Below are positions 10,268 through 31,231 of a DNA stretch of 36,787 bases, one piece after another; position 1 is the first letter of the stretch, and each line of letters begins with the position of its first letter. A program made the translations under genes and the position numbers. A model generated the notes under the pieces. It searched no databases. It saw only the letters and a list, made by a program, of their open reading frames with translations, and was not told where the DNA came from. Source of the DNA: Merismopedia glauca CCAP 1448/3 (GTDB taxonomy: Bacteria; Cyanobacteriota; Cyanobacteriia; Cyanobacteriales; CCAP-1448); assembly GCF_003003775.1 (NCBI RefSeq), contig NZ_PVWJ01000049.1, forward strand, positions 1 through 36,787, given 5' to 3'.

Positions 10268-11887
10268 ATGAATACAGATCTAGCAGAAATAACAGAAGCC
10301 GATCTCGATCTGGCTGTGGGTGGGGTTAGTCGCCAGGAATCCGACGATTTGCCCTTATTAACCTCAGAGTCTTCTCAACCATTGCTTGACGATTCTGAGC
10401 TTTTTGACCAGAAAAAAGCCAATCAACTCCAAGGTAACCGTCCTTTGGTGCAGCTTGCAGTGGTCTTAGGCATTGTTGGTGCGGTTTCGGCGATCGCTCT
10501 CTTCTTCTTTCTGGGATTTTCGGCTAAAGTAGCTCATCAGCCGAAAGATGAGCCAAAGGAGGTCACGGCTTCGCCTCCAGTGGAGGATGAAGCCAGTAAA
10601 TACAAATCTAGAGCCGCTTTTGCCGATCAGAAGTTGAAGATCGAGCCTAATAGTTCTCCTGCGCCTGTAGCCAGTCCTTTGATTCCAGATAGCGCGCCGC
10701 GGGTTAGTCGGGTCAAAAATACTTCAACACCTACGCCTACGCCTACTCCTACTCCTACTTTTATTCCTTCGCCTGCGCCACCACCATCACTACCCCCTAG
10801 AACTTATACTCCATCTACCCCACCGCTACCCGCAAGGCGAACCAGAGTTGACACTCCACCTCCACCATCACAGATTCGTCGTTATACTCCATCCCCACTA
10901 CCCCCTAGAACTTATACTCCATCTGTGCCACCACCCCCTAGAGCTTACATTCCACCACCATCTCCTCATCCCAGGATTGTTCCTTCTCCTCCACAACCAG
11001 ATCCTAGTCCAATTCGTAGTTACACTCCATCACCATCACCCTATATTGCTTCAACACCTACACAACCTGTTCCATCTCCTGTCGATCCTCATCAAGCTTG
11101 GCTGGCGGCGGCAGAAACTGGTTCCTATGGGACTGGAGAGGTGGGATCTGTCAATACTGAGGTTGTAGCATCGACACCTACACAAGCTGTTTCTACAGAT
11201 GTTAGTTATCTTTCAAGTAATCAGAATGTAGTAGAAGGAGAGCCGCAGATATTAGTGGGAACCCGCGCTCATGGGATTTTGGAGACTCCAGTGGCTTGGG
11301 TCGGTCAAAATCCTAATCCTCAGCCAAAATTTGTCATTAGGTTATCTGAGTCGATTAGCTACAGTAATGGAGCTAGAGCTATTCCTGAAGGCAGTTATTT
11401 AATTGTCAAGATTGATAGCAGCAATCAAGCCGGATTTTTAAATCTCAGCGCCACTGAGGTCTTAATTCCTCAATCAGATGGTGGAACTATTGCTAAATCT
11501 TTGTCTCCAGGAGCGGTTATTGTCCTTGGTGGTCGAGGGAATCTTTTGGAGGCTAAGGCGGTGAAACGCGATCGCCTTGGGGGTAATTTGAAGATGGCGT
11601 TGCTCTCAGGAATTGGGCAATCTACCGAATTGATTAATCGACCAGATACTCAAGTTTCTACCAATAACGGGTACTATAGTTCTACTACCACTAGTAATCC
11701 TCAGCCTAATTTGCTGGCAGGGTTTGCCACAGGTGTAGCTCAGAATTTAGTTGACCAAGAGATGAGTCGATTACAGCAGCAAGTTGATAATAGTAGAAAT
11801 AATGAGCCTGTTTTTATCATTGAGAAGGGGGCTGAGGTTCAGATTTTTGTTAATAGTAGTTTTCCATTAGATATTACATCTCCTTAA
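10268..11887 (+). CDS. VirB10/TrbI-like core-complex protein with long proline-rich spacer
   Basis: The 539-aa product has a cytoplasmic N-terminus (1-60), a single membrane helix at 61-84, and a proline-rich periplasmic spacer at about 130-272 with a TPTPTPTPTPT run and repeated RTYTPS/RxYxPP motifs. The C-terminal domain (about 300-539) has the beta-rich TrbI/VirB10 character, including a GTRAHGILETPV segment and a conserved-looking IPEGSYLIVKI. VirB10 spans from the inner membrane to the outer-membrane pore and reports ATP use. The +1 frame across the spacer is also open for 106 codons, but that is a composition artefact. Confidence 0.78.
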   Translation: MNTDLAEITEADLDLAVGGVSRQESDDLPLLTSESSQPLLDDSELFDQKKANQLQGNRPLVQLAVVLGIVGAVSAIALFFFLGFSAKVAHQPKDEPKEVTASPPVEDEASKYKSRAAFADQKLKIEPNSSPAPVASPLIPDSAPRVSRVKNTSTPTPTPTPTPTFIPSPAPPPSLPPRTYTPSTPPLPARRTRVDTPPPPSQIRRYTPSPLPPRTYTPSVPPPPRAYIPPPSPHPRIVPSPPQPDPSPIRSYTPSPSPYIASTPTQPVPSPVDPHQAWLAAAETGSYGTGEVGSVNTEVVASTPTQAVSTDVSYLSSNQNVVEGEPQILVGTRAHGILETPVAWVGQNPNPQPKFVIRLSESISYSNGARAIPEGSYLIVKIDSSNQAGFLNLSATEVLIPQSDGGTIAKSLSPGAVIVLGGRGNLLEAKAVKRDRLGGNLKMALLSGIGQSTELINRPDTQVSTNNGYYSSTTTSNPQPNLLAGFATGVAQNLVDQEMSRLQQQVDNSRNNEPVFIIEKGAEVQIFVNSSFPLDITSP

Positions 11888-11992
11888 TTTTTTTTGAATA
11901 ACCTGATTAAAGGAAATTTATTTTTTTGAGTTAAAGCTCCAATTTTATTCTGATGAGGTTATGATGGGATCGGATCTCTTCAGTAACTTTTT

Positions 11993-12889
11993 ATGGCTAG
12001 ATCGATTGCTGCCAAGCTGGCGACTGGCATATCTTTAGTGTTTTTAGCAGTTGGAACTCCTGGCTTTGGCTTGGATATTCCAAATGAAGTTGCACGAGGA
12101 AGCAATGGTAAACCTTTCTTGCTGCGTGTATCTCGTGGTTTTGGTTTAAATGTCAGCTTTTTAGAGACAGGGGAGGTAATTACTAAAGCATGGCTCGACG
12201 ATCCGAGTCGAATAGTTTTTTCCGTTGAGGGCAACTTATGTCCAACAGGTCAAAATTGCACCAGCAAAGTTTCTCAAATTATCCATTTGAAACAAATTAA
12301 TCCGATTGATTTCCCTCAAATTCCTAGCTCTGCCGATAAATCAACTCTCTTGACTGTGATTACGCAAAAACAAGGGAAAAAGCGCATATATTCCTTTCGT
12401 GTAGTACCCGTTCAATCCAATGGTGGGGATAATTTAGTCAATATTCTTAGTCCTAATTCTCAGCCCGTCACGGTATCTAGCCCTGTACCAACTGATTTTC
12501 CAGAGCTAAATATTCCCAATATTCCCAGACAGGAAGTAAGGGTAGAGACACCACCTCCAATTCCCTCACCTGTACCTGCATCATCACCACCCTCTTTTAA
12601 ACCACTACCTACTTCATCTGTCACTCGCCACCTTACGAATGGAGAGCAAGCAGATTTTTTAGTTAGCGGACTAATGTGGCGCAAATCTGATTATCCCCGT
12701 CGTTCAGGGCAATGGAGACGGATCAATACAGCTATAGCCTTATTGAGACAAGGAGAATCTTTAAACAATGCGGCGATTAAGGCTAAAGTACCGTTAGATG
12801 AGTTACAAAGTCTAGTAAATTTCGCTAGGGGTAGAAATTCAGATCTGATTCGCACTAATGCTCAAAAACCTTTATCTTTTTTGGATTAA
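11993..12889 (+). CDS. VirB9/TraK-like secreted T4SS protein
   Basis: The 298-aa product has a signal peptide at about 1-26 (ending GTPGFG before LDIP) and a beta-rich N-terminal domain with strands such as ITKAWLDDPSRIVFSVEG. That segment resembles the VirB9/TraK domain that forms the outer-membrane core collar. Two cysteines (CPTGQNC) are present. A Pro-rich linker (about 183-208) precedes a charged helical C-terminus (about 215-298). It lies directly after VirB10, whereas virB9 normally precedes virB10. The assignment is plausible but not certain. Confidence 0.55.
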   Translation: MARSIAAKLATGISLVFLAVGTPGFGLDIPNEVARGSNGKPFLLRVSRGFGLNVSFLETGEVITKAWLDDPSRIVFSVEGNLCPTGQNCTSKVSQIIHLKQINPIDFPQIPSSADKSTLLTVITQKQGKKRIYSFRVVPVQSNGGDNLVNILSPNSQPVTVSSPVPTDFPELNIPNIPRQEVRVETPPPIPSPVPASSPPSFKPLPTSSVTRHLTNGEQADFLVSGLMWRKSDYPRRSGQWRRINTAIALLRQGESLNNAAIKAKVPLDELQSLVNFARGRNSDLIRTNAQKPLSFLD

Positions 12890-12891
12890 TT

Positions 12892-13092
12892 ATGGACACT
12901 GAAACCAAAACACCAGAAAATCAAGTATTAAAGTCGAAGAAAACATTATCTACGGGAAAAATAGTCTGGTTTTCCATTTTAGGTTTCATCGGATGTTATA
13001 TCCTCTGGTCGGCACTATTTTATCACCCGTCTGCTTACCAGCAGAGGCAGGATTGGATTAATAATCCTGGCAAACCAAATTCAGGTCAGTAG
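12892..13092 (+). CDS. Small single-pass membrane protein
   Basis: This 66-aa protein begins 2 bp after the VirB9-like stop. It has a polar N-terminus, one hydrophobic helix at about 26-46 (IVWFSILGFIGCYILWSALF) and a polar tail. It has no lipobox, so it is not an obvious VirB7. It is the last gene before the hairpin at 13106, so it probably ends the T4SS operon. The family is unknown. Confidence 0.6.
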   Translation: MDTETKTPENQVLKSKKTLSTGKIVWFSILGFIGCYILWSALFYHPSAYQQRQDWINNPGKPNSGQ

Positions 13093-13105
13093 TTCTTTTG
13101 AATTG

Positions 13106-13139
13106 ATTATGGAATCTCAATTAGCTGAGATTCCATAAT
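13106..13139 (+). terminator. Strong hairpin, probable end of the T4SS operon
   Basis: A perfect 14-bp stem (ATTATGGAATCTCA with its complement) and a 6-nt loop ATTAGC are followed by a short T run (TTTT). It starts 14 nt after the last T4SS-cluster stop. The weak T tract means termination is likely but not certain. Confidence 0.65.
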
Positions 13140-13193
13140 TTTGGGAAAGAAGGTGATAAAATGTTTTGTAATTTATTGGTTTAATTCAGAAAA

Positions 13194-17123: not shown

Positions 17124-18128
17124 ATGGAACTTTCAGGCGATAAGTTTGAACAATTGCGGATTGCCTTGCAGCGAGCCTACCCTAGCAGACCCAAGTTGCA
17201 GTTATTGTTGCGTGAGGAATTGAATGTCAGATTGGACGAGATAGTAGGAAACGGTAACTTAGAGAATACCGTTGCAGAATTGCTCGGGTGGGCTGAGGAG
17301 TCTGAAGAAAGAATACCGAAGCTAGTAAGTGCTGCTATCAAGAGAAATCCAGGTAATTCCCATCTGCGTGCGTTTGTTGAGTCTTTTGGGATGATCCCTG
17401 TTGAGGCAAGGGCTACTCCCATTATTTCTTCTGGATCGGAGTTTGAATGGCGAGGTCCAACTGACGATCTCGAACTTCAGAGCTTTTTGCGTCCACAGCC
17501 CCAATTGTGGGATATGGCATTTCTCAAGCATGGAGTGGATCGAGCGGCTGGCGTGTGTCGGATTGAAATTGAGGCAAGGCAAGCGATCGGGACTGGGGTT
17601 TTGGTTAAGCAAGATTTACTCCTGACTAACTACCATGTTTATGAAGCGGCAGGACTAGATGCTTCGCGACTGCGTTTAGCATTTGGGTCTATGACTGGGA
17701 TGGAAGAAAACGAACGGATATTTCAGCTAGCGGATCATCCAGTTGTTCATTACAGCCCCACCAATAAGTTTGATTATGTGTTGTTCCGCGTAGAACCCAG
17801 AATTTGGCAGGCTGATGCTATTCGTCCTGTCAGCTATGTCCAAACCTCTCCACCCAAGGGAAGCAGCGTTCACGTTGTCCAACATCCTGATGGTGATGCG
17901 ATGAAGGTAGCGTTTGGCACGAATGGGGTTACAGGTGTATATGAGGAGGAAGGGCTAATTCAGTACGTTAGTCAAACATCAAATGGGTCTAGCGGCTCTC
18001 CCTGTTTTAACGATCTATGGCAATTGGTTGCCTTACATCATGCCCAGCGTGCCACCACCTTTAGGGTTGTGTGCGAGGGCATTCTGTTTAGCAAAATCTA
18101 TCCGCAAATTGCGGCGGCTCTATCTTAG
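17124..18128 (+). CDS. EAD-trypsin: effector-associated domain fused to trypsin-like serine protease
   Basis: The 334-aa product has an N-terminal effector-associated domain (about 1-88, beginning MELSG and helical) and a chymotrypsin/trypsin-fold protease at about 140-334. Likely catalytic triad: H171 in LLLTNYHV, D217 in KFDYVLFRV, S292 in NGSSGSPCF. There is no signal peptide, so it should act in the cytosol. EAD-trypsin proteins are known components of NTP-dependent conflict systems, where EADs are thought to bind each other and connect effectors to adaptors. The VMAP-C protein at 18593 starts with a related EAD (also MELSG...QLR.AL), so the two probably interact. All key residues are present. 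Confidence 0.88.
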   Translation: MELSGDKFEQLRIALQRAYPSRPKLQLLLREELNVRLDEIVGNGNLENTVAELLGWAEESEERIPKLVSAAIKRNPGNSHLRAFVESFGMIPVEARATPIISSGSEFEWRGPTDDLELQSFLRPQPQLWDMAFLKHGVDRAAGVCRIEIEARQAIGTGVLVKQDLLLTNYHVYEAAGLDASRLRLAFGSMTGMEENERIFQLADHPVVHYSPTNKFDYVLFRVEPRIWQADAIRPVSYVQTSPPKGSSVHVVQHPDGDAMKVAFGTNGVTGVYEEEGLIQYVSQTSNGSSGSPCFNDLWQLVALHHAQRATTFRVVCEGILFSKIYPQIAAALS

Positions 18129-18592: not shown

Positions 18593-20164
18593 ATGGAATT
18601 AAGTGGTGCAGAAGTTAAACAACTTCGATTAGCATTAAAAGATTCATTTAAAGAAGGCGATCTAAAGCAGTTCTTGCGTGAAGATCTGAATTTGCGTTGG
18701 CATCAAGATATAGAAGGAGGAACATACGATGCCAAAATTGCGAGTTTAATTGAAACTGTTGAAAGTAGAGGAATTAAAATATTTCAAAAATTAGTTATTG
18801 GTATTGCTAGGGAAAGATCTAAAAACTCAAAAATCAAAGAATTTGTTGAAATCAAAATTGCTGACTTGATCGAACATAATATTGGTAGTTTATCGAAGAA
18901 GGCATTAGTTGACATCATCAATATTCTTGAGCGAACTAATAACTTTAATGATATTTGGATGATTGGTAAAAATATTTTGTCTAGTAAAGTTGGAGATTGT
19001 TATTCACAGGAAGTTAAAAGCTTAGCCAATTCTAATTTATCAAATTGGTTTAAGTGTTTTATCCTCCTCAAGCTTTTTTTAGAAGCTTATCCGGGTTCAT
19101 CCGATTACCCTAATATTTTGGCTCTTGTCCAGAATCTTCTCCAAAAATCAGCTTTAAGTAATGAGATTAAGCGAGAGTTAAGGGAATGGCTTCAAGAAGT
19201 CAATCCTAATTTTACATCTCAGGCTACTCTCTCATCTAGTACTAATGAATCTCAACAACCAACTGGTGGGGAATTAAAAGCCCATTTAATGATTACGGTC
19301 AATTCTGAACAGTCTAAATATCGGGTCATTGCTAGTCTACTTTGTATTGCCCCAACAGGAAATAGTAAAGAAATCCCAGTCAACTTGAATCCACAGTCTA
19401 ATGAGCGAGGTATATCGTGTACCAAACGTCAGCTACCTAAGAAACTAGCAGAGTTCATTCAAAAATGTCTATCAGATAGCCTGAGCTATTCGGACAACTT
19501 ACTAGGATGTAATTACTATAAGCTAATTATCGAACTATTTTTACCTATTGAGCTACTTTGCGAGCCTATTGACCGCGAAAATATTTTTGGTGGTAATATT
19601 CATTTTGCAGCTAAATATCCTTTAGTAATTCGTTCCTACGATCGGCTTAGTAAAGCTGTAATTGAAGGAAAAGATCTTTGGAATGAGTTTGTCAGATCCT
19701 CAGCCCAATTTCCGCACTTATTAGAAGTAAATTCCCAACCAAAATGGCAAAACATAATCTTACCTTTAACCGATCTAAATAGTGTTAGTTTGATGTCGTT
19801 TAAGGAAAAGCTTAAGAAGAGTATAGGCATTAGAAGTAATTGTCCAGTGCCTGCTTGCCCCAAACAGAAGTATAGGTTACTGCTGGAAATATTGGACTCT
19901 GGTATTCCAATCGTGTTTTGGTCTAGATCTGGCGAACCATCCTTCGCCGCTCGCAAAACTGGGATAAATCGGTTTTTACAAGTCGATCTGTTGTGCGATC
20001 GCTATAGATTCATAGAAGAAGTAAGAGGGGCGCGTGCGCGTGCGCTTGACTATCGAGGGCAAACACAGGAACGATGGCTGAGACATCTCACTTTGCTGTG
20101 GGACGATCCGAAACTGATGCCGCCAATGGATTTATTGCAAGTAGGAGGAAAAACTTCATCATGA
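18593..20164 (+). CDS. EAD-VMAP-C protein (vWA-MoxR-associated protein)
   Basis: The 523-aa product has an N-terminal EAD (about 1-88) and a helical middle part at about 95-200. A linker near 205-222 leads to a C-terminal domain (about 225-523) with VMAP-C hallmarks: LIIELFLPIELLCEPID, then YPLVIRSYDRL, then IPIVFWSRSGEP and a final PPMDLLQVGG. VMAP proteins are the third partner of vWA and MoxR in ternary systems and bridge to EAD effectors. Its stop overlaps the MoxR start as ATGA (20161-20164), as expected for stoichiometric partners. Confidence 0.8.
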   Translation: MELSGAEVKQLRLALKDSFKEGDLKQFLREDLNLRWHQDIEGGTYDAKIASLIETVESRGIKIFQKLVIGIARERSKNSKIKEFVEIKIADLIEHNIGSLSKKALVDIINILERTNNFNDIWMIGKNILSSKVGDCYSQEVKSLANSNLSNWFKCFILLKLFLEAYPGSSDYPNILALVQNLLQKSALSNEIKRELREWLQEVNPNFTSQATLSSSTNESQQPTGGELKAHLMITVNSEQSKYRVIASLLCIAPTGNSKEIPVNLNPQSNERGISCTKRQLPKKLAEFIQKCLSDSLSYSDNLLGCNYYKLIIELFLPIELLCEPIDRENIFGGNIHFAAKYPLVIRSYDRLSKAVIEGKDLWNEFVRSSAQFPHLLEVNSQPKWQNIILPLTDLNSVSLMSFKEKLKKSIGIRSNCPVPACPKQKYRLLLEILDSGIPIVFWSRSGEPSFAARKTGINRFLQVDLLCDRYRFIEEVRGARARALDYRGQTQERWLRHLTLLWDDPKLMPPMDLLQVGGKTSS

Positions 20165-21306
20165 CTCAGGATTGGATCGTATTTGAAGGAGAGAAAGAAC
20201 CACACGATGGCATCGATCGCCTACTCCAAATTGAAGCTCCAAAATGGCGGCAATTTGCTGGCAGCGATACTGTTTTGGATGACGACAAAGATGCTGCTTA
20301 CTGGGCAAAATTACATAATATTGCCAAAAAGAGAGTGCGCGACATCGAGCGAGGAAAAAGCTTTCGAGTTCCGCCAACACAATCTGAGTCAGATGATCCA
20401 GATGCCAAAGTGCCCAGTGTCATTGATGCAGTTAATGCGGCTCTTTATCTACGCCGACCATTGTTAATTACGGGAAAACCCGGATCGGGAAAAACTTCTC
20501 TAGCTTACGCGATCGCCTATGAACTAAAATTGGGTCCAGTCTTAGTCTGGTCGGTGACGGCAAGATCGAATCTCCAGCAGGGACAATATCAATACGATGC
20601 GATCGCTAGATTGCAAGATGGTCAGCTTAGTCAATACCCTCAGACAAAGACTGAGACGGCACTAGAACAGGTTAGTCAATACTCTCAGACAAAGACGGAA
20701 CCCGAACTAGAACAGGAGCAAAATCACCTTGATATCGGCAAATATATCCGCCTTGGTTCTGTGGGCACGGCATTCTTGCCCTCAAAGCGTCCGCGCGTAT
20801 TGCTGATTGACGAAATTGACAAGAGCGATATTAATTTGCCCAATGATCTGCTCAATCTTCTCGAAGAGGGTGGCTATTCCATAACAGAATTACGCAGGCT
20901 AGCAAAACGCGGTAGCAAGACGCAAACCGTGGAATCAGAAGATGGTTTAGATGTTGAGATTCACGATGGTAAAGTGCAGTGTCAGGCATTCCCCGTGGTG
21001 GTAATGACCAGTAACGGAGAGCGGGAGTTTCCTTCGGCTTTTTTGCGTCGCTGCGTGCGAATTGCCATGCCAACTCCCAAAGATGAGGCACTGGTTAATA
21101 TTGTTAAGTCTCACCTAGGAGAGGAATTAACTAAACAATTTGAGAAAATAATTACCGATTTCCAAGAGCGCAATGACGAAGAAGAAGGAAATTTGGCAAC
21201 CGATCAGTTACTCAATACCCTATATCTACTAGCCAAGGATGCCGATACCGAGAAAATCAAAGCGCTGTTATTCAGTTCGCTTACGAGTATGGGAACAGGG
21301 CAATGA
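20161..21306 (+). CDS. MoxR-family AAA+ ATPase of the ternary system
   Basis: ATG 20161 overlaps the VMAP stop (ATGA). It is preferred over an upstream in-frame start at 20074 that would run far into the VMAP gene. This gives 381 aa. Walker A GKPGSGKT is at 105-112 and Walker B LLIDEIDKSD has D217-E218. A sensor-1-like VVVMTSNGEREFP and the arginine-rich AFLRRCVRI follow. MoxR ATPases remodel or activate partners, usually vWA proteins. The loop between Walker A and B carries a 15-residue tandem duplication (SQYPQTKTETALEQV / SQYSQTKTEPELEQE). The gene ends in an ATGA overlap with the vWA gene. Confidence 0.88.
   Translation: MTQDWIVFEGEKEPHDGIDRLLQIEAPKWRQFAGSDTVLDDDKDAAYWAKLHNIAKKRVRDIERGKSFRVPPTQSESDDPDAKVPSVIDAVNAALYLRRPLLITGKPGSGKTSLAYAIAYELKLGPVLVWSVTARSNLQQGQYQYDAIARLQDGQLSQYPQTKTETALEQVSQYSQTKTEPELEQEQNHLDIGKYIRLGSVGTAFLPSKRPRVLLIDEIDKSDINLPNDLLNLLEEGGYSITELRRLAKRGSKTQTVESEDGLDVEIHDGKVQCQAFPVVVMTSNGEREFPSAFLRRCVRIAMPTPKDEALVNIVKSHLGEELTKQFEKIITDFQERNDEEEGNLATDQLLNTLYLLAKDADTEKIKALLFSSLTSMGTGQ
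20629..20718 (+). repeat. 45-bp in-frame tandem duplication in the MoxR gene
   Basis: Two adjacent 45-nt units (20629-20673, 20674-20718) are clearly related and encode 15 residues each. They lie between the Walker motifs and extend a surface loop. Confidence 0.8.
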
Positions 21307-23906
21307 TTGATCGCCTGATTGCAGAATTAGGAGAGCAACTAGAACTAACTGCGGAAGAGTTGGCAGATATTGTTTGGTTAACGCTGATTCGGCGGCAGGG
21401 TAAGGCTGATGCTGTGCCAGCACCACAGACAAAGACTGTGCTTGAGACGGTTACAGTCTCATCCTCTTACTCGTCAACATCTATACCTATCTCAGCACCG
21501 ACTCCCCAACGTCAGCTTAAGTCTGAAACTTTAGCTGGGATTGCCCCTCACCGATCGCATTCCAGCACCAGCGATCAGCTAGGACGAATCCCTATCAAGG
21601 TGGCTAACCCGCCTTCCATTCGCGATCCTTTAGCATTGGTGCGATCGCTGCGTCCCCTCATGCGTTTAGTGCCCTCCGGTTATGTTGAGAGCTTGGATGA
21701 AGAAGCTACCGCACAACAGATTGCCGAGGCATTTATCTATCATCCAGTGGTCAAACCAGAACTAGAACCTTGGTTAGATTTAATTTTAGTGGCAGATGAG
21801 AGCGATTCTATGCCGATCTGGAAGCAGACGGTGCTGGAATTTCGCAAACTGCTCCGCAATTATGGAGCATTTCGGGACGTGCAGCTTTGGGGACTGTATT
21901 GGGATAGTAAACATAAACAATTCAAGCTCCATTCGGGGCTGGGAAAAGCACCTCAAGCAACTCGCCAACCGAAAGTAGTGATCGATCCTAGTGGACGACG
22001 GTTGATTTGGTTGATAACTGATTGCGTTGCCGATTATTGGCAAGATGAAAGTTTAGTGCAGTTGTTGAAACTTTGGTCGCGATCTAGTCCAGTGGCGATC
22101 GCTCAAGTATTCCCAGAATGGTTGTGGATGCGGACGGCTATTCGTAGCTATACCCCCGTCTCCCTATTGGCGCAGGAACCCGGATTACCCAATGCGCGAC
22201 TCACCGCTCTAAATAGTGATGGGCAGGCTGAAATCAAGCCTAGATCTGGCACCCTTATGCCAATTGTGCCCCTAGAAGCTAATGCTGTCTTGGCTTGGAG
22301 TCAGATGGTGATGGGACACCATGAGTCACAGGGCTATCGCGTGCGGGCGATCTCGTCTGATCCTGATGCCACAGAACCAGTTTCTTTATCGCTTCAACAA
22401 CGCATCGAACGGTTTCAGGTAATGTCGTCACCCATCGCCCAACGCTTGATGGGATTAGTAGCAGCAACCCCATCGATTACCCTGCCAGTTATTCGCCTGA
22501 TCCAAGAAACCTTGTTGCCTAGATCGCGGCAGATGAATGTCGCAGAAGTATTGCTCGGTGGGCTGTTAAAGCCGATCGCATCTCCAGAGTTGGTTGAAAA
22601 CGAGCTTGAGTATATCTTTGTAGACGAAGGCATCCGCGATCTATTGCTTGCCGAAACCCCAGTGCCTGATACGGTTGCGGTGCTATCAAAGTATATAGAA
22701 CGGCAGTTTGACAAGTCACTGGATGATTTTGTGGCGGATTTGCTGCTCTGGAGCCAGAGTGAGGATCAAGAATTGGTAGAAGCAGCTCGTCCTTTTGCCA
22801 CCGTCACGGCTGCGGTATTGAAGCGTAAAGGGGGCAAGTATCGCGATTGGGCAACTCAGATTGAGCAAGGGTATGTCCCTTCGCCACAGCCCGGACAGGT
22901 CGAATTTCCCCCGTTGCAATCAATCACATTTGAAACGGTATTTGTGGAGTTAGAGGAAGAGAATTCTCTCCAAGCTTTTGATTTTGAAATGGCGACGGTA
23001 AGTTTGCCAACATCGGGTAGGAAAAAAACAGTTACGATTCACAAGCAACAGGGGCAGGCATGGAAATATATCGAGCCACTGAGCGAAACCGTAGAACTAG
23101 AAATGGTAGCAATTCCAGAGGGGAAATTCTGGATGGGTTCGCCAGACAATGAACCACAGCGATCTCCTGATGAAAGTCCCCAGCATGAAGTCAGCGTTCC
23201 AGCTTTCTTTATGGGGAGGTATCCCGTAACGCAGGCTCAGTGGCAGTTTGTCGCGACTCTACCACAAATTGAGAGATCGCTAGACCCAAACCCATCTAAC
23301 TTCAAAGATATGACTAAACCTGTTGAAAGAGTCTCTTGGCTGGATGCTACAGAGTTTTGCGCCCGACTCTCCAAATTCACAGGAAAAGCCTATCGCTTGC
23401 CCAGTGAAGCGGAGTGGGAATATGCCTGTCGTGCCATGACCTCACCCCCTTCGACAAGCTCAGAGCAACGCCCAATCTCTCTCCTGCAAGGAGAAGGGAG
23501 CAATTACCCACCATTTCATTTTGGAGAAACTATTACGCCAGAGTTGGCAAATTATGATTGGAAATATGCCTATGGTAATGCTCCAAAGCTAAAGAAGAGT
23601 TCTGAGGGGACGACACCCGTGGGGCAGTTTGGCTTTGCTAATGCCTTTGGCTTGTCTGATATGCACGGTCAGGTGTGGGAATGGTGCGAGGATGATTGGC
23701 ACAGCAATTATGAAGGTGCGCCTACTGATGGTAGTGCTTGGGTCAATAAATCTCGTTCTGAGACTGACACACGAGTAGTGCGGGGCGGTTCTTGGGTCTC
23801 TTCTCCTAGGTCTTGCCGTTCTGCTGGCCGCAGCGACCTCTTTGCGGGGGATCGCGACTTCAATGTCGGTTTTCGTGTTAGTTGTTCTGCTCCGAGGACT
23901 CCTTAG
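21303..23906 (+). CDS. vWA/SAV_2336-like protein with C-terminal DGR-variable FGE-sulfatase (C-type lectin) domain
   Basis: The 867-aa product starts with an ATGA overlap to moxR. A Ser/Thr/Pro-rich linker at about 40-90 is followed by a region resembling SAV_2336/vWA domains (about 105-330). A MIDAS-like DESDS lies at D165-S169 (DxSxS), followed by LIWLITDCVADYW. A middle helical part leads to an FGE-sulfatase fold (about 600-867) with IPEGKFWMGS, LPSEAEWEYACRAM, DMHGQVWEWCEDDW and RGGSW. The last 41 residues are the DGR variable region: relative to the template the changed residues are V832, S833, S834, S837, G842, S844, D845, L846, F847, D852, F853 and V855. It should be the ligand-sensing member of the ternary system. 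A 14-residue insertion, absent from the second FGE gene, lies in the middle of the lectin domain. Confidence 0.87.
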   Translation: MIDRLIAELGEQLELTAEELADIVWLTLIRRQGKADAVPAPQTKTVLETVTVSSSYSSTSIPISAPTPQRQLKSETLAGIAPHRSHSSTSDQLGRIPIKVANPPSIRDPLALVRSLRPLMRLVPSGYVESLDEEATAQQIAEAFIYHPVVKPELEPWLDLILVADESDSMPIWKQTVLEFRKLLRNYGAFRDVQLWGLYWDSKHKQFKLHSGLGKAPQATRQPKVVIDPSGRRLIWLITDCVADYWQDESLVQLLKLWSRSSPVAIAQVFPEWLWMRTAIRSYTPVSLLAQEPGLPNARLTALNSDGQAEIKPRSGTLMPIVPLEANAVLAWSQMVMGHHESQGYRVRAISSDPDATEPVSLSLQQRIERFQVMSSPIAQRLMGLVAATPSITLPVIRLIQETLLPRSRQMNVAEVLLGGLLKPIASPELVENELEYIFVDEGIRDLLLAETPVPDTVAVLSKYIERQFDKSLDDFVADLLLWSQSEDQELVEAARPFATVTAAVLKRKGGKYRDWATQIEQGYVPSPQPGQVEFPPLQSITFETVFVELEEENSLQAFDFEMATVSLPTSGRKKTVTIHKQQGQAWKYIEPLSETVELEMVAIPEGKFWMGSPDNEPQRSPDESPQHEVSVPAFFMGRYPVTQAQWQFVATLPQIERSLDPNPSNFKDMTKPVERVSWLDATEFCARLSKFTGKAYRLPSEAEWEYACRAMTSPPSTSSEQRPISLLQGEGSNYPPFHFGETITPELANYDWKYAYGNAPKLKKSSEGTTPVGQFGFANAFGLSDMHGQVWEWCEDDWHSNYEGAPTDGSAWVNKSRSETDTRVVRGGSWVSSPRSCRSAGRSDLFAGDRDFNVGFRVSCSAPRTP
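23780..23896 (+). repeat. DGR variable repeat VR1
   Basis: This 117-nt block matches the template 25466-25582 without gaps. It differs at 18 positions, all of them adenines in the template. It ends at GCTCCGAG, the invariant end expected for the initiation site of mutagenic homing, 10 nt before the stop codon. Confidence 0.95.
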
Positions 23907-23960
23907 CCCTTTACTCTCTAGCCCTCTAGCCCTCTGCCCTCTTTTCTTTTCACTCTCCCT

Positions 23961-23974
23961 TCGCCGTCAGGCGA
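23961..23974 (+). repeat. Hairpin downstream of VR1
   Basis: TCGCC-GTCA-GGCGA forms a 5-bp stem with a tetraloop, 65 nt after the end of VR1. An identical hairpin sits 65 nt after VR2. Hairpins or cruciforms downstream of variable repeats assist target recognition in some DGRs; this one is farther away and shorter than the classic case. Confidence 0.5.
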
Positions 23975-24004
23975 TCAAATTATAAAATCAGAAAATTTAG
24001 TCCT

Positions 24005-24349
24005 ATGTCAGAACTCCCGATCGTTCAAAAAACCTACGATTTAATCAAGTGGTATGTCCCTATTCTCAATCGTCTCCCCCGCAACCATAAATTTTTGCTA
24101 GGCGATCGCATCGTGACGCGGCTATACGATCTCCTGGAGGGATTAATTCAGGCGCGTTTTAGCCACAATAAGCTTTCTAGATTAGAAAAGCTGAATATTA
24201 GCTTAGATGTTCTTCGCCACCAAACCCGTCTGTTAGCTGATTTTCAACTTATAAATACCAATCGCTACGAATATGTTGGCAAGAAATTGAATGATATCGG
24301 AAGCGATCTCGGTGGTTGGATCAAACAGCAGCAGCAGGTATTAAAATGA
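24005..24349 (+). CDS. avd: DGR accessory variability determinant (Avd)
   Basis: The 114-aa protein is predicted to be all helical, as in the four-helix Avd family (bAvd, 23S-IVP-like fold). Typical features are a basic helical pattern with [18 protein letters not shown] and a C-terminal LGGWIKQQ. Avd binds the reverse transcriptase and the template RNA and is needed for cDNA synthesis and retrohoming. It starts 98 bp after the first target gene and overlaps the RT start as ATGA at 24346-24349. Size, composition and neighbours make the call strong. Confidence 0.9.
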
Positions 24350-25407
24350 AACGTTACGGTAACCTTTGGCACCAAATTATTAGTTTTGAGAATTTGCTCA
24401 AGGCATCTCGTCAAGCCCAAAAAAGCAAACGATTTCGCGCTAATGTTTTGGATTTTAATTACAATCTAGAGCAAGAGCTAATTCAGCTTCAGTACGAGCT
24501 TCAGAATCATACATACAAACCCGGAGCTTACCGTACTTTCCAAATCTTTGAACCAAAACCACGGGTAATTTCAGCCGCCCCCTACCGCGATCGCGTTGTT
24601 CATCACGCACTTTGTAATATTATTGTCCCCATTTTCGAGCCGACTTTTATCCACGATAGCTATGCTAATCGGGTAGGTTTTGGTACTCATCGTGCTTTAC
24701 GACGTTTTACCCAGTTTGCTCGTAACAGTCGTTATATACTGCAATGCGACATCCGCAAGTACTTCCCTAGTATTGATTGTGAAATCCTGAAATCACAGCT
24801 TCGTCATAAAATCAAGTGTCCTGAAACGTTATCCCTAATCGAGCAGATCATCGATCTTGGTCACGACCAAAAACCAATCGTTGAATATTTCCCAGGGGAC
24901 AACCTGCTCACACCTTGCCAAAGGCTACGAGGGTTACCAATCGGTAATCTCACCAGTCAGTTTTTTGCCAACGTTTATTTGAATGGATTTGACCATTTTG
25001 TGAAAGAGCAACTCAAGGCAAAGCGATATCTACGGTATGTTGACGATTTTTGTCTCTTTGCCGACGACCGCGAATTTCTAGCTGATGCCAGAGTAGCAAT
25101 TGAGGATTATTTGACTACCTTGAGAGTGCGAATCCATCCGATTAAAAGCCAATTGTTTGAAACCAAGATCGGTGCTAATTTTGTGGGCTTTCGGGTGCTG
25201 AGCGATCGCATTAGGGTACGTAACGATAACCTGCGACGGGGAAGGCTACGCCTCAAACAGATGAAAAAAGCTTGTCTTAACGAGCAGATCTCCCTAGAGC
25301 AGTTAGAGCGATCGCTCCAAAGCTGGAATGCCCATCTAGAACATGGCGATACTTGGCGATTGCGGCAAGATATATTTCAGGCAGAGGCATTTTGTCAAAT
25401 ATCTTAA
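24346..25407 (+). CDS. DGR reverse transcriptase
   Basis: I prefer ATG 24346, overlapping the avd stop (ATGA), over 24316; it gives [18 protein letters not shown], a usual DGR-RT beginning. The length of 353 aa is typical. Motifs: [11 protein letters not shown] (palm motif A) and LPIGNLTSQ (197-205), where I-G-x3-SQ replaces the QG-x3-SP of most reverse transcriptases and marks DGR enzymes. The active-site YVDD is at 231-234, and a downstream [18 protein letters not shown] (motif D/E region) is present. All catalytic aspartates are intact, so the enzyme should be active. It copies the TR RNA with errors at adenines. Confidence 0.95.
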
Positions 25408-25465: not shown

Positions 25466-25582
25466 GCGGGGCGGTTCTTGGATCAATAATCCTAGGAATT
25501 GCCGTTCTGCTGACCGCAACAACAACAATGCGGGGGATCGCAACAACAATATCGGTTTTCGTGTTAGTTGTTCTGCTCCGAG
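25466..25582 (+). repeat. DGR template repeat (TR)
   Basis: This noncoding 117-nt template starts 58 nt after the RT stop, on the same strand. It holds 10 AAT/AAC codons in the frame of the target genes, including an AAC-AAC-AAC-AAT run and an AAC-AAC-AAT run, plus 27 adenines in total by hand count. AAY codons allow 15 amino acids but no stop codon. Directly after the block the TR has T (25583) where both VRs have G, then ACTC matches again. This gives an IMH-like versus IMH*-like difference at the boundary. Confidence 0.95.
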
Positions 25583-25744
25583 TACTCTTCACAGTCAGAA
25601 CTTGTGGATGGGAATCCATTGGGTGTACTAGAGGAGTCCAGACCTGCTCCAGTGATGCACCAGCATCCGAAAATCAAAACGGGTAGGGTAGCCTGGTAGC
25701 TGCGGCGAACGTTTGCCCTACCTCCCATATTTTGGGCACTCAAC
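25583..25744. other. Region between TR and the second target gene
   Basis: No gene is seen. GGTAGGG (25682-25688) can pair with CCCTACC (25716-25722) around a 27-nt loop and might end or protect the template RNA. DGR RNAs usually extend beyond TR, so part of this stretch may be functional RNA. Confidence 0.35.
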
Positions 25745-26581
25745 ATGAAAATTACTCTCCGTTCCGAATCGTGCGCCGCACAGTACTACCAAGAAGATTT
25801 AGACAGCAGTACCACTTTAGACATGATTTTGATTCCGGGTGGTAATTTCATGATGGGATCTCCCGACCACGAGCCAGAACGATATGATGATGAAAGTCCT
25901 CAGCATAATGTAAAAGTGCCCACATTCTTTATGGGGAAAACTCCTGTAACTCAAAAACAGTGGCGCGCTGTAGCGGCTTTACCTGAGATAAAACACCATC
26001 TAGATCCAAACCCATCTGAATTTTCGGGGGACGATCGCCCAGTCGAGCAAGTCTCTTGGCATGAAGCTGTAGAATTTTGCGCTAGGCTTGCTAAAAAGAG
26101 CCGCAGACCCTATCGCTTGCCCAATGAGGCGGAGTGGGAATATGCTTGTCGTGCCATGACCTCACCCCCAACACAGGGCAATTACCCACCGTTTCACTTT
26201 GGGGCAATTATTACCCCAGATTTAGTAAATTACAACTGGACAGAAAGCTACCAGAACTCGCCCACCAAGTCAGAAAGATCGAGCGGAACTACTCTTGTGG
26301 GAACTTACCCTCCTAATGCCTTTGGCTTGTACGATATGCACGGTCAGGTGTGGGAATGGTGCGAGGATGATTGGCACAGCAATTATGAAGGTGCGCCTAC
26401 TGATGGTAGTGCTTGGGTCAATAAATCTCGTTCTGAGACTGACAGACGAGTAGTGCGGGGCGGTTCTTGGATCAATGATCCTAGGTATTGCCGTTCTGCT
26501 GACCGCTTCAACTACCTTGCGGGGGCTCGCTACTACGATGTCGGTTTTCGTGTTAGTTGTTCTGCTCCGAGGACTCTTTAG
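25745..26581 (+). CDS. Stand-alone FGE-sulfatase/C-type-lectin DGR target protein
   Basis: This 278-aa protein consists of one FGE-sulfatase domain without the vWA part: MILIPGGNFMMGSPDHEP, PVTQKQWRAVAALPEI, RLPNEAEWEYACRAM, DMHGQVWEWCEDDW and RGGSW. It is alignable over its whole length to the end of the 21303 gene product and diverges mainly in the N-terminal two thirds. The VR2 residues that differ from the template are D245, Y248, F255, Y257, L258, A261, Y263, Y264, D265 and V266. There is no signal peptide, so it is probably cytosolic. It could be a decoy, a soluble co-receptor or a second specificity for the same relay; this is inference. Confidence 0.88.
   Translation: MKITLRSESCAAQYYQEDLDSSTTLDMILIPGGNFMMGSPDHEPERYDDESPQHNVKVPTFFMGKTPVTQKQWRAVAALPEIKHHLDPNPSEFSGDDRPVEQVSWHEAVEFCARLAKKSRRPYRLPNEAEWEYACRAMTSPPTQGNYPPFHFGAIITPDLVNYNWTESYQNSPTKSERSSGTTLVGTYPPNAFGLYDMHGQVWEWCEDDWHSNYEGAPTDGSAWVNKSRSETDRRVVRGGSWINDPRYCRSADRFNYLAGARYYDVGFRVSCSAPRTL
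26455..26571 (+). repeat. DGR variable repeat VR2
   Basis: This 117-nt block aligns to TR without gaps. It has 12 differences, all at template adenines. It differs from VR1 at many of the same codons, so the two genes have been diversified independently. Confidence 0.95.
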
Positions 26582-26635
26582 CCCTTTACCCTATTGCTCT
26601 TTTGCCCTCTGCCCTCTTTTCTTTTCACTCTCCCT

Positions 26636-26649
26636 TCGCCGTCAGGCGA
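26636..26649 (+). repeat. Hairpin downstream of VR2
   Basis: It is identical to the hairpin at 23961-23974 and lies at the same 65-nt distance from the VR end. The sequence between VR2 and the hairpin is also very close to that after VR1, so it may simply have been duplicated with the target. Confidence 0.5.
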
Positions 26650-26693
26650 TCATTTTTTTTATCATGGCGATCTTGTGGTTATTTCTGCCAATA

Positions 26694-27189: not shown

Positions 27190-27636
27190 TTAATTACACC
27201 AATTTTCGAGAGGAAATGCTTTGACTGATTGCATTCGGGTGAAACCACGATCTGCTGAAACAATAGTCAGATTGTATTGCAGCGCGGTAGCAGCGATCCA
27301 AATATCGTTATCATCAAAACCTAAATCGACGATAGTGGTTCTTCTACGCTTCTCTTTTTCCTTGGGTGCAAATCGCTGGAATAATGCAGCTTTTAACTGA
27401 CCATAGGCAGTAGCTGTCAGATCGTCTGCTAGATAAATCCGAATATCATCGAGAAACTCGCTTAAACGAGATAGGTTACTCTCTTTCATCTTAGAGTTTT
27501 CCATCATAAAAGTAAGCTCTCCTTGCACAATTACACAAGTGACAATTTGAGATTCATTCACCATTGCTACATGACGAATGATGTTAGGATCGCCAAGAAT
27601 GATGCGGCTACAGTGATTGGTGTCTAGCAAGTACAT
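27190..27636 (-). CDS. vapC: VapC-family PIN-domain toxin
   Basis: This 148-aa PIN-domain ribonuclease has the expected acidic residues: D5 (MYLLDTNHCS), E40 (VQGELTF), D111 (DDNDIWIAA) and D129 (IVSADRGF). VapC toxins cleave RNA, often tRNA or rRNA, when freed from their antitoxin. The gene starts with a TAATG overlap to the upstream antitoxin gene, as expected for a co-translated pair. The motif set looks intact. Its role on this element is probably post-segregational maintenance. Confidence 0.88.
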   Translation of the reverse strand: MYLLDTNHCSRIILGDPNIIRHVAMVNESQIVTCVIVQGELTFMMENSKMKESNLSRLSEFLDDIRIYLADDLTATAYGQLKAALFQRFAPKEKEKRRRTTIVDLGFDDNDIWIAATALQYNLTIVSADRGFTRMQSVKAFPLENWCN

Positions 27637-27911
27637 TATTCAATCAAATTGTGTTCGTCAAATTTGGCTTGACTGCGAGTGTCATAAACCATTTGCAAGC
27701 ACTCATCAAAGTCATCACCCTGCCATGTGCCAGCGTGTCTCAGAATAGAACGTCCTGATGCGGGACGATAGGTTAGCTTTGCTGGTACTTCTGTGAAAGC
27801 TTGGGGGTTCTCTCGTTTGACTTGGATCGAACTGGCGAAATGAAGAACTTCCGCCAGTAGTTCCTCTGGCATCGACTCAATTTCCTGCATTAGCTGTTCT
27901 TTTAGTGTCAT
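27636..27911 (-). CDS. VapB-like antitoxin (DUF2281-type N-terminus)
   Basis: The 91-aa product begins MTLKEQLMQEIESMPEELLA, then EVLHFASSIQVKRENP, a pattern typical of the DUF2281-type antitoxins found with PIN toxins in cyanobacteria. The C-terminal part (SGRSILRHAGTWQGDDFDEC) should wrap the toxin. It lies directly upstream of vapC (TAATG overlap). A ribosome binding site-like GAGG precedes the start. The promoter region carries the direct repeat at 27946-27963. Confidence 0.78.
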   Translation of the reverse strand: MTLKEQLMQEIESMPEELLAEVLHFASSIQVKRENPQAFTEVPAKLTYRPASGRSILRHAGTWQGDDFDECLQMVYDTRSQAKFDEHNLIE

Positions 27912-28170: not shown

Positions 28171-29655
28171 TTATCTTTCCCAGTCCAGGTTTTTGTGGTT
28201 ATGCTTGATTCTTTTGCGTTCAAGTTGTTCTCGATCTGCTTCATTCAACTGCTTTGCATTATCATTATCAGTCCTAACTAGATCGCTAGTTCTGCTTTCT
28301 ACTCGCTCTTCTGAGTTATAATTCTCAGGCTCTATTTCATGGTCTTTGAATATGTCAATAGATGTAGTGTCAGATTTCTCTTCTTCACTAATTTCCACCC
28401 CTTCTGAGATTTTATGATCTGGCAACTCCTGTTGAGTTTGAATTATTTCTGGAGCGTTGGCGCAGCCTCTCGGTTGGCGGAGCCTGCCTGTGGGACATAC
28501 GAGAATCGCATCGAATGTTCGCTCTGAAACTCGTAATTCTTCGCTCCTCTCAATGTTAGTCTCCAGTCGATCTTGGTCTGTTTCCTGTCGATTGCAGGTT
28601 GTCTCTGGAAGAGTTAAAGCTGTTAATTGTGCTAGTTTCTGCGGCATGACTGATGCGATGTCTTTGGGCTTTTTCAGATTTGCCTCGTCATCATCATTAT
28701 CATCAGAAGTAGAAGACTGATTTAATTGATGAACTAAACTAACAAATCCTTCATTTGACCAAGTTTGGGTTAAGGTTTCATCTAACTTTTCCAGACTTTT
28801 TTGACTGGTTGTTTCTAGTTTGTCTTGCTCTGCTTGTTGATTAGTATAGGTAAACTTGGTGACACAACCAACTGTCATTCCTTCTTGAATTAATCCTTTT
28901 AAAGTATATTTTTTGCCTAATTTTCTGGCAGCAAAAGCCACCTGATTATATTGATAAGATAAACCTTCTATTTCGCCACTAGGTTTAACTCTAACTCTAG
29001 TTTGTATGTGTCTTTGTTCTAATCTATTTAGCAGTTCTTCCACGGTAGAACTGGTAGTTATTAGTTCGTCAATAGCAGATTGAATTGTAGTTTTAATACT
29101 AGGAGTTGATAAACCTTCTGGATTTTGTGACTTCTCTTTTCTTTCTTTCCTAATTTGTCCTGTAGTTGGCGCACCTTTTGATTGCTCCCAAGATGACTTG
29201 ATGGAAGTTATTCCAGTTTCAACTTCAATTTTCCTCAAGATTTTTTCGGTATTTTTATAGTCCATCCAACTAGATACTACTTTTCCGTCATTCAGCTTGA
29301 CTCGGTTAACTATGAGATGAAGATGCGGTCTGGGTTTTCCAGTTTCAGTATAGGTATCGTGATGAGCCGCAATTAACCATTGATTGTTATTATATCCAGC
29401 CCTTTTGAGAAATGTTTCCGCTAGTTCTACCATTTGCTCGGTAGAGATTTGGTCATCGGGGTGCGGACTTAAACTGATGTGAGCTACTGGATATATTACT
29501 CTACTATTTTGAGTGGCGATCGCCTCAAATTCCGCAGCCAATTGACAAGAACTTTGGCTTGCCATATTGGTTTTTAGTAAGATCGCATCTTTCTTGTTCA
29601 AAACGTAAGATGTGGCTCCTCCAAAGGAGCTTCCTTTGACTACTTTAGCTAGCAT
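28171..29655 (-). CDS. Conjugative relaxase (MobP/MobA-like relaxase/mobilisation nuclease domain)
   Basis: This is a 494-aa protein from ATG 29655; an in-frame TTG at 29673 is the alternative. The relaxase domain is in the first ~170 residues: KGSSFGGATSYVLNKKDA, then a helix, and the metal-binding motif III with HHDT at 98-101 and PHLHLIVNRV (H111, H113). A catalytic Tyr candidate is Y17 in the N-terminal ATSYVLNK. The C-terminal part is charged and variable. About residue 405 (CPTGRLRQPRGCANAP) carries a segment encoded by dispersed TTGGCGNAGCC repeats (28459-28490). The start overlaps the upstream mobC-like gene by 11 nt. It would nick oriT, probably in the 29989-30026 region. Confidence 0.88.
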   Translation of the reverse strand: MLAKVVKGSSFGGATSYVLNKKDAILLKTNMASQSSCQLAAEFEAIATQNSRVIYPVAHISLSPHPDDQISTEQMVELAETFLKRAGYNNNQWLIAAHHDTYTETGKPRPHLHLIVNRVKLNDGKVVSSWMDYKNTEKILRKIEVETGITSIKSSWEQSKGAPTTGQIRKERKEKSQNPEGLSTPSIKTTIQSAIDELITTSSTVEELLNRLEQRHIQTRVRVKPSGEIEGLSYQYNQVAFAARKLGKKYTLKGLIQEGMTVGCVTKFTYTNQQAEQDKLETTSQKSLEKLDETLTQTWSNEGFVSLVHQLNQSSTSDDNDDDEANLKKPKDIASVMPQKLAQLTALTLPETTCNRQETDQDRLETNIERSEELRVSERTFDAILVCPTGRLRQPRGCANAPEIIQTQQELPDHKISEGVEISEEEKSDTTSIDIFKDHEIEPENYNSEERVESRTSDLVRTDNDNAKQLNEADREQLERKRIKHNHKNLDWER

Positions 29656-29965
29656 CTTCTGGGTTGATTCCAATGGCTTTGAGTCTGATTTTATTCAAGG
29701 TTTCAATAACCTGCAACCTGGTAGACTCATCAGCGATTGCTGATTCTATCTGGGCTATAGCTAATCCTAATTCCGCATAGATTGTATTTCCTTGGCGAAC
29801 TCTTCGTCGTTGGGGTTTGTGATTGTTGAGCCGATCTCGAACCCACTGAGATAAGTTTTTTTCTGCCATTGCAGCTTTAATTTCCCAGATCTGTTTCTGG
29901 GAGAAAGAGCATCTGATGAGCAAGATGGCTTCTTTCTTGGTTTTATTTTGTTTATACATCGACAT
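29645..29965 (-). CDS. MobC-like relaxosome accessory protein
   Basis: This 106-aa basic protein lies directly upstream of, and overlaps, the relaxase gene. The N-terminal half looks like a ribbon-helix-helix (AILLIRCSFSQKQIWEIKAA, then helix NLSQWVRDRLNNH). The C-terminal half is helical. MobC/MbeC-type proteins bind oriT and help the relaxase. It starts at ATG 29965, with a second ATG two codons downstream, next to the candidate oriT. The name is by size, fold pattern and context. Confidence 0.7.
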   Translation of the reverse strand: MSMYKQNKTKKEAILLIRCSFSQKQIWEIKAAMAEKNLSQWVRDRLNNHKPQRRRVRQGNTIYAELGLAIAQIESAIADESTRLQVIETLNKIRLKAIGINPEDAS

Positions 29966-30487: not shown

Positions 30488-31231
30488 ATGAGCAACTTAA
30501 TCTTTGTCACGGGTAACAAAGGTGGAATTGGCAAATCCACCCTAGCTAGAGGTTTGATAGATCGCTATCTGGCTCAAAACATTCCATTATCAGTTTACGA
30601 TGGCGATACAGAAATTGGCAGCTTGCATAGGTTTTGTCATAAAGTGACTCCCGTACATCGCATTGATATGCATGGGAGCAATCCCTTAGATAAGTTGATG
30701 ATAGATCTAGATACAAGTCAGCCATCCCCAGTAGTTGTTGATTTAGCGGCTGGGATAGGTACAGTATTTTCAATCGCTACAGCCGAATTAGGATTTTTTG
30801 ATTGGTTGAGAACTACTCGATATCAAGTCTCGATGTTTTCGGTGATTTCCAATTTAATAGATTCAGTCGTAATTTTGAAGAAACTACTCGAATCTTTAGA
30901 ACAGCAAAAAGTTAGTTCAATTCATCATGTAGTAGTCAAAAACTTACATTTTGGAGATCCTGAAAGTTTCGATACCTACGATAGATCTAGTACCCGTAAA
31001 ATATTACTAGAACTTGGTGGCAAAGAAATCTTTCTGCCCAAGTTAAACGATTTAACTTGTCAAACCGTAGATTTCAAAAATCTCTCATTTAGTCAAGCAG
31101 TGACTGACACCTCCATTGGTTTACCCCATCGCCTGAGAATCAGTACTTGGCTGTCTAATTTAAACGCTGAGTTAGATCAAGTTAGTGCTTTAGTAGATCC
31201 CACCGTAGTCGATGCATCAAATGCAGCCTAA
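30488..31231 (+). CDS. ParA-like ATPase (deviant Walker A)
   Basis: The 247-aa product has the deviant Walker A GNKGGIGKST at 9-18, with both signature lysines K11 and K16, D38 in VYDGDTE, and VVVDLAAGIGT at about 82-92. These are hallmarks of ParA/MinD/Soj-type ATPases, which on plasmids segregate copies or position transfer complexes. Located beside relaxase genes, it could also belong to the TraL or MobD-like ParA proteins of transfer regions. The next gene overlaps its end by 20 nt. Confidence 0.82.
   Translation: MSNLIFVTGNKGGIGKSTLARGLIDRYLAQNIPLSVYDGDTEIGSLHRFCHKVTPVHRIDMHGSNPLDKLMIDLDTSQPSPVVVDLAAGIGTVFSIATAELGFFDWLRTTRYQVSMFSVISNLIDSVVILKKLLESLEQQKVSSIHHVVVKNLHFGDPESFDTYDRSSTRKILLELGGKEIFLPKLNDLTCQTVDFKNLSFSQAVTDTSIGLPHRLRISTWLSNLNAELDQVSALVDPTVVDASNAA

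Follow-up and report, generated by a model that had tools for sequence, protein, structure and literature searches.

A free-standing FGE gene as second DGR target and possible partner of a vWA-fused receptor in Merismopedia glauca

Introduction

DGR-linked conflict systems have been proposed to serve multicellular bacteria as adaptive sensors. The question addressed here is why a second target that comprises the variable domain only is present in many loci. Short, CLec-only second targets are already described in the accessible parts of PMC10907252 (2024), and the architecture of the gene considered below is therefore not new. As in the Merismopedia locus, the systems of that report show a MoxR ATPase gene upstream and one long plus one CLec-only target; they are proposed to be antigen sensors, and clade 5E is given as comprising most cyanobacterial DGRs of such kind (PMC10907252, as far as the text was available). 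The Merismopedia locus differs from them in the vWA (SAV_2336) part of its long target and in the presence of a VMAP protein.

A second group of relatives are the VMAP ternary conflict systems with a DGR (Kaur et al., 2020; PMC7159879), which likewise combine MoxR, a vWA part fused to FGE, and a VMAP protein with an EAD. The sections of that paper that were accessible describe the vWA-fused FGE, and no mention of a free FGE partner was found in them. The Npun_F4889/F4890 DGR of Nostoc punctiforme also possesses two targets beside MoxR and vWA genes (PMC12691664, PMC3610870, both in part). Adenine mutation is reported for both targets, and the second one is co-expressed with the MoxR and vWA genes; the domain make-up of the targets is not given in the portion of the paper at hand (PMC12691664). 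Wording on multiple targets was not found in PMC8144416. In literature searches, to which subscription papers mostly did not belong, no report was found of a free partner beside a fused gene without a close DGR, nor of polarised exchange between two such genes; these are the two points added here.

Layout of the locus

The window, i.e. the whole stretch of 36,787 nucleotides from Merismopedia glauca CCAP 1448/3 that was analysed, harbors a locus with the gene order EAD1-trypsin, VMAP, MoxR, vWA-FGE (target 1), bAvd, RT, TR, and free FGE (target 2). Its features are as follows.

17124-18128, + strand: EAD1 plus trypsin-like protease, likely effector (Pfam EAD1 2.4e-20, Trypsin_2 1.2e-19)
18593-20164, + strand: VMAP protein with EAD1, VMAP-M1 and VMAP-C (Pfam, three of three domains above cut-off)
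20161-21306, + strand: MoxR-like AAA ATPase (AAA_5 2.9e-08, above cut-off; start codon picked by eye, the open frame begins further upstream)
21303-23906, + strand: target 1, vWA (SAV_2336-type) N-terminus fused to a C-terminal FGE domain
23638-23977, + strand: the part of target 1 and its 3' flank that corresponds to the common tract at 26313-26652
23780-23903, + strand: VR1, in fused target 1
23961-23974, + strand: GC-rich hairpin 3' of VR1, TCGCC(GTCA)GGCGA
24005-24349, + strand: bAvd accessory protein (Pfam bAvd 1.9e-21)
24346-25407, + strand: DGR reverse transcriptase (RVT_1 1.1e-20)
25466-25589, + strand: TR (template repeat), three-copy family with VR1 and VR2, A-specific differences
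25585-25723, + strand: conserved RNA element 3' of the TR (alignment of 20 chosen loci; sub-threshold Rfam RT-14)
25745-26581, + strand: target 2, free-standing FGE protein of 278 aa with ATG start (open reading frame, Pfam)
26313-26652, + strand: tract common to both targets, consisting of pre-VR part, VR, stop codon, spacer and hairpin
26455-26578, + strand: VR2, in target 2
26636-26649, + strand: hairpin 3' of VR2, with sequence and spacing as behind VR1

The N-terminus of target 1 matches NCBIfam NF041121 SAV_2336_NTERM (E 1e-107, residues 16-468) and its C-terminus Pfam FGE-sulfatase (2.3e-48, residues 600-859). The designation "vWA part" is based on NF041121 and a DxSxS motif seen on visual inspection; no vWA match in target 1 is given by Pfam. 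MoxR, vWA and VMAP are thus present together as in a ternary system, which is a property of the locus and not of target 2 alone, with the vWA component recognised via NCBIfam and motif rather than Pfam. MoxR homologues adjoin vWA genes in related loci as well. The RT of the window shows 63-70% identity in alignment to 12 other RTs from its order and its own genome, and the nearest named relatives of RT and targets are cyanobacterial.

Target 2 as a second target of the local DGR

Open frame, domain search and structure prediction confirm that the gene at 25745-26581 is real and encodes one FGE/C-type-lectin-fold domain. Pfam assigns a single family, FGE-sulfatase (residues 26-270, E 1.3e-57), and no vWA, EAD or other domain. 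The AlphaFold2 model (mean pLDDT 92.3) predicts a complete and confident fold; among solved structures, PvdO (5hha) and a formylglycine-generating enzyme match it best. TvpA of Treponema denticola (PDB 2y3c), like target 2 a variable protein of the same fold, ranks fourth with a TM-score of 0.72 and 26% identity in the structural alignment, and also matches in sequence (E 5.4e-25). Its genomic context differs from that of target 2. Pfam, pLDDT and structural matches agree in placing target 2 among FGE/C-type-lectin variable domains; since the NCBIfam enzyme models that match it score far below their cut-offs, "FGE" is used here as a family name only.

TR, VR1 and VR2 form a three-copy repeat of 84-90% identity with differences almost only at A, which, as a sequence pattern, is not one that chance produces. 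Of the 31 template A in the best-scoring core, 20 are altered in VR1 and 14 in VR2; each VR has, in addition, a single non-A difference, which falls on the same 3' position in the alignment (TR 25583). A 130-nt comparison places 18 template A in first, 13 in second and one in third codon position; the latter is unchanged in both VRs, and the changes in VR2 are distributed over 11 first, four second and no third positions. By its VR and by these codon positions, target 2, which is encoded on the same strand as the RT and 3' of the TR, truly qualifies as a second target of this DGR. Compared feature by feature, it corresponds to the FGE domain of the fused target minus the vWA part, rewritten from the same TR and followed by the same 3' hairpin.

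The earlier note had described a second target behind the TR that lacks the vWA part and any EAD, which is borne out by Pfam and by the position of the TR (25466-25589). The EAD it implied for the fused target is absent there too, EAD1 residing in the VMAP protein and in the trypsin-like protein. That the fused receptor and the free gene use a common template holds, as VR1 and VR2 are both A-mutated copies of one TR, and the suggestion of a second specificity or co-receptor is supported as far as sequence can do so.

Hairpins, template RNA and expression

Both VRs are followed by a pyrimidine-rich spacer and the identical hairpin. In BPP-1, a hairpin-forming inverted repeat 3' of the VR is needed for efficient homing, according to the available part of PMC3240598. 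The structure at 26636-26649 is of the kind expected behind a DGR target, with a 5-bp stem that is shorter and a spacing that is longer than in the phage examples. In the surveyed loci, 22 of 31 free targets have a GC-rich hairpin no more than 120 nt from the VR, as do 43 of 69 long ones; shuffling gives means of 0.7 and 1.3, respectively. The feature is not specific to DGR targets, because seven of the 25 FGE genes from stretches that lack a DGR RT are likewise followed by a hairpin, and the one behind VR2 could be read as a terminator, too.

The element at 25585-25723 can be aligned in 20 chosen loci (19 of the 49 listed and, partly, L094), with or without a free target. Rfam RT-14 matches it over the full length below the gathering score (36.4 vs 48.1, E 0.012), and in seven related loci no RT-14 match reaches that score. 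The element probably forms the 3' portion of the template RNA. As target 2 starts ~20 nt behind it, gene and template RNA probably share a transcript. Template RNA is reported to be very highly expressed in N. punctiforme (PMC12691664, in part), which makes read-through expression of target 2 plausible. A promoter scan yielded five sites, against 4.7 in shuffles.

Recurrence of free partners

The RT-anchored set comprises the best 80 named loci of a longer RT list, the window, and 12 loci from relatives of the order and from its own genome, i.e. 90 loci after removal of three duplicates. The 60 relatives listed include none from the same genus. Free targets that match a TR, 33 genes in total, occur in 26 of these 90, one or more per locus. 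Among the matches listed, 23 of the 33 begin within 10 residues of the domain, and 21 are located behind the TR and share the strand of the RT, 15 of them starting 159-288 nt past the TR. MoxR is encoded in the stretch in 20 of the 26 loci, again among the matches listed; of the six lacking it, three (L065, L116, L135) are on contigs cut near the long target and three (L131, L133, L143) are not cut. In the 54 loci that have a long target and 1.8 kb or more of 5' sequence, MoxR accompanies 18/18 with a free target vs 13/36 without (Fisher 3e-6, matches listed); frames cut at contig ends (L087, L141, L146) are left out, which turns 18/19 into 18/18. The presence of MoxR was judged by phmmer with one query, for which the best E-values in L154-L157 are only 1e-27 to 2e-35, and on the RT tree the link between free target and MoxR comes down to only four supported independent pairs (median p 1). 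MoxR also occurs in 11 of 17 free-FGE loci chosen by hand among the matches listed.

Fourteen loci were hand-picked for short frames or tandem hits, with other short frames of ~340-400 aa left out. As this picking was done from the best rows of the hits, the frequency claim is based on a second survey, which uses the vWA part rather than the RT as its anchor and thereby removes the DGR bias. It covers 120 relatives, of which 21 gave hits, in 30 loci. A free FGE is located within 5 kb of 16/21 fused vWA-FGE genes vs 0/6 usable unfused vWA genes, a small control group (p 0.0016; p 0.003 without L056, whose free gene is broken). Left out were L185 (cut) as well as L165 and L174, in which the contig ends within the vWA gene, the unfused count being 0/8 with the latter two included; L179, near a contig end, was kept as having no free FGE. 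Five of the 21 fused genes have no free partner. Such a partner is present at 6/6 fused genes with a DGR in the stretch (including the broken L056) and at 10/15 without. The surveys show that free FGE genes recur near fused vWA-FGE genes, also where no DGR RT is close. The earlier note had counted it against its reading if homologues of target 2 were to occur mostly without the ternary system; the MoxR counts and the proximity to 16 of 21 fused genes run the other way.

Nine fused-free pairs have no local DGR (L149, L151, L152, L171, L175, L178, L181, L182, L184). The seven genomes of these pairs, mostly drafts in which distant or unassembled DGR RTs are possible, yielded no match to the RT at E<=1e-60; G006 (L151) contains a single sub-threshold bAvd match. 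In one syntenic locus, bAvd, RT and TR lie between the fused and the free gene in genome G096 (L176), and the two genes stand side by side in G038 (L149) and G010 (L150), where ~4.35 kb of the G096 locus are replaced by ~30 nt. Both genes are kept, each with 81-88% identity between the genomes and, for L149 and L150 compared with L176, 81-86%. G010 possesses DGR RTs elsewhere in the genome; G038 has none at E<=1e-60. We infer that the cassette was lost in L149/L150 rather than gained in L176. Between G038 and G010, the fused VRs are the same at 39/41 positions, and the free genes agree at 30/42 in the VR vs 198/225 in their own domain; this contrast between fused and free VR is not repeated in L154/L155. 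As a separate observation, L176 contains a second RT frame (11352-13151, - strand) between the fused target and Avd on the opposite strand, distant from DGR RTs (E 3e-10).

Proposed role of the free protein

The reading preferred here, to which we give about an even chance, is that target 2 would be a second soluble hypervariable sensor subunit, acting as partner in a DGR-diversified vWA-MoxR-VMAP system. The fused and the free protein would work as a pair, e.g. as two ligand-binding subunits in one MoxR-driven assembly, with each sampling ligands independently. Binding of a ligand by either or both might be relayed to the vWA/MoxR pair and from there to the effector arm of VMAP and EAD1-trypsin. 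A free partner where no close DGR remains leads to a concrete prediction, namely a heteromeric sensor, and the syntenic locus with and without the cassette, together with polarised conversion (see below), makes the partner idea directly testable.

Exchange between the fused and the free gene

According to an alternative that we consider unlikely, the main role of the free gene would be that of a reservoir, a second mutating copy from which gene conversion carries the VR-bearing end into the vWA-fused receptor. An argument for it comes from the window pair, in which the last 82 codons of the domain show no synonymous difference (0/22.5 synonymous sites changed in the pre-VR part, codons 43-82 from the domain end, and 0/32.2 in the VR). 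Upstream of this tract, the two targets are near saturation at synonymous sites, with a pS of 0.78 in codons 83-122 and 0.66 in the rest. The common tract of ~340 nt continues past the stop codons to the hairpin, with few differences in the non-coding spacer. Copying from the TR alone cannot make it, because the pre-VR part is absent from the TR, nor is the pS of zero explained by constraint, since pre-VR pS is at least 0.46 between the fused gene of the window and the long targets of other loci (67 comparisons). These synonymous sites show a recent exchange of the VR-bearing 3' segment within the window pair. L084 repeats the pattern (0/21.7 synonymous sites changed in the pre-VR part, 1/30.3 in the VR), and the 60 nt behind the VR, mostly non-coding spacer, match at a median of 54/60 within loci (43 pairs) vs 18/60 between loci.

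A direction can be read in G096. Diagnostic sites are those at which the fused genes of the other two genomes have one base in common and all three free genes share a different one. The fused gene of G096 is of the free type at 10927-11123, apart from two exceptions and one third state, which amounts to 23/26 sites at 10900-11140, including 12/12 in the pre-VR part (10900-11000). This segment is flanked by fused-type sequence: the free-type background before the tract is 30/122, and behind it 8/10 sites are fused-type. The TR barely aligns to the pre-VR stretch (20/40 and 17/47). A transfer from the free to the fused gene is the simplest account.

Against exchange as the main purpose stands its rarity. 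Pre-VR pS is zero in only two of 42 within-locus pairs; its mean of 0.52 vs 0.63 upstream reflects lower values in 26/42 pairs and no lower ones in 16/42. Neighbouring paralogues are moreover expected to convert without any purpose, and free genes exist where there is no local DGR. The alleles themselves also argue against it: at A sites mutated in both genes, the same base was observed 164 times vs 144 expected (37 pairs; 7 vs 4.6 in the window), pointing to VR-allele sharing that is at most weak. Allele sharing as a proof of transfer was dropped for this slight excess. Of the earlier suggestion that the free gene stores VR alleles for conversion into the receptor gene, the exchange of the VR flank in the window and the free-to-fused polarity in G096 stand, and the transfer of VR alleles proper is left with this weak signal.

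Partnership and donation may be combined. Recombination would swap the VR-bearing 3' ends of the two genes, and donation to the receptor could then be a by-product of the role of the free copy as partner. In such a two-gene receptor, which we put forward tentatively and hold to be rather unlikely in this full form, the free copy would be partner and donor at once, with the DGR mutating both genes and recombination moving the VR and flank of the free gene into the vWA-fused one. Hypermutation would then be coupled to gene conversion within one bacterial immune-like locus.

Origin and remaining alternatives

In a domain tree from which the VR and the 40 residues before it were left out, free domains appear in many places (24 changes, at least 13 of them forced; not settled by bootstrap). 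The free and the fused domain of the window are sisters (96/95) on long branches, and in one case domains of different species cluster, namely the free one of Nostoc desertorum (L074) with the fused one of Desmonostoc muscorum (L071; 100/99). Repeated local birth or repeated homogenisation, either would give this pattern. As free targets are polyphyletic, there is no single conserved partner lineage.

Such scatter would also suit a passenger, i.e. a DGR target that arose by duplication, persists through chance and turnover, and has no role of its own. Solitary free FGE genes occur likewise: among the hand-picked loci, L153, L158, L159, L160 and L161 have a free FGE in a stretch that lacks MoxR, and in L158-L161 a fused partner is missing as well. 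In addition, the free copy at a second DGR locus of the same genome is broken by an insertion. This explanation is nevertheless distinctly unlikely, given that target 2 is open, full-length and confidently folded and that free genes recur in many loci, also without a local DGR. Very doubtful, finally, is a decoy or soluble competitor that would bind the ligands of the receptor and damp it or set its threshold, for although target 2 is domain-only, without vWA, made from the same template and, judged by eye, devoid of a signal peptide, nothing specific favours it, and VR1 and VR2 differ by 18 nonsynonymous changes, so that the fused and the free protein need not bind the same ligand.

The second DGR ternary locus of the Merismopedia genome just mentioned (L056, on contig C96, 4042-11045) contains MoxR, vWA-FGE, Avd, RT, TR and free FGE. 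The element that interrupts its free FGE is a MITE-like sequence of 181 bp with perfect 16-bp inverted ends, of which the genome holds four copies with 98-100% identity.

Two of the loci without MoxR bear further traces of a DGR. In L153 (6086-9567, contig C72 of genome G005), where no DGR RT is found in the stretch, two FGE genes, one of the fused type and one free, correspond to the TR of the L064 DGR on another contig of the same genome, with 15 A and one non-A differences in one gene and 19 A and seven non-A in the other; they are likely remote targets of that DGR. In L159 (5975-7490), a free FGE is directly followed by a TR-like copy (120/130 identical, nine of ten mismatches at A), and no RT was found in the 12-kb stretch.

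Downstream of target 2, the window encodes a VapBC-like pair (27190-27911, - strand), a MobA/VirD2-type relaxase (28171-29673, - strand) and a protein with a weak ParA-like match below cut-off (30488-31231). An exact overlap of the contig ends was not found at six lengths tried. Given the VapBC-like pair, the relaxase and the ParA-like match, the contig may represent a mobilisable plasmid or an integrated element.
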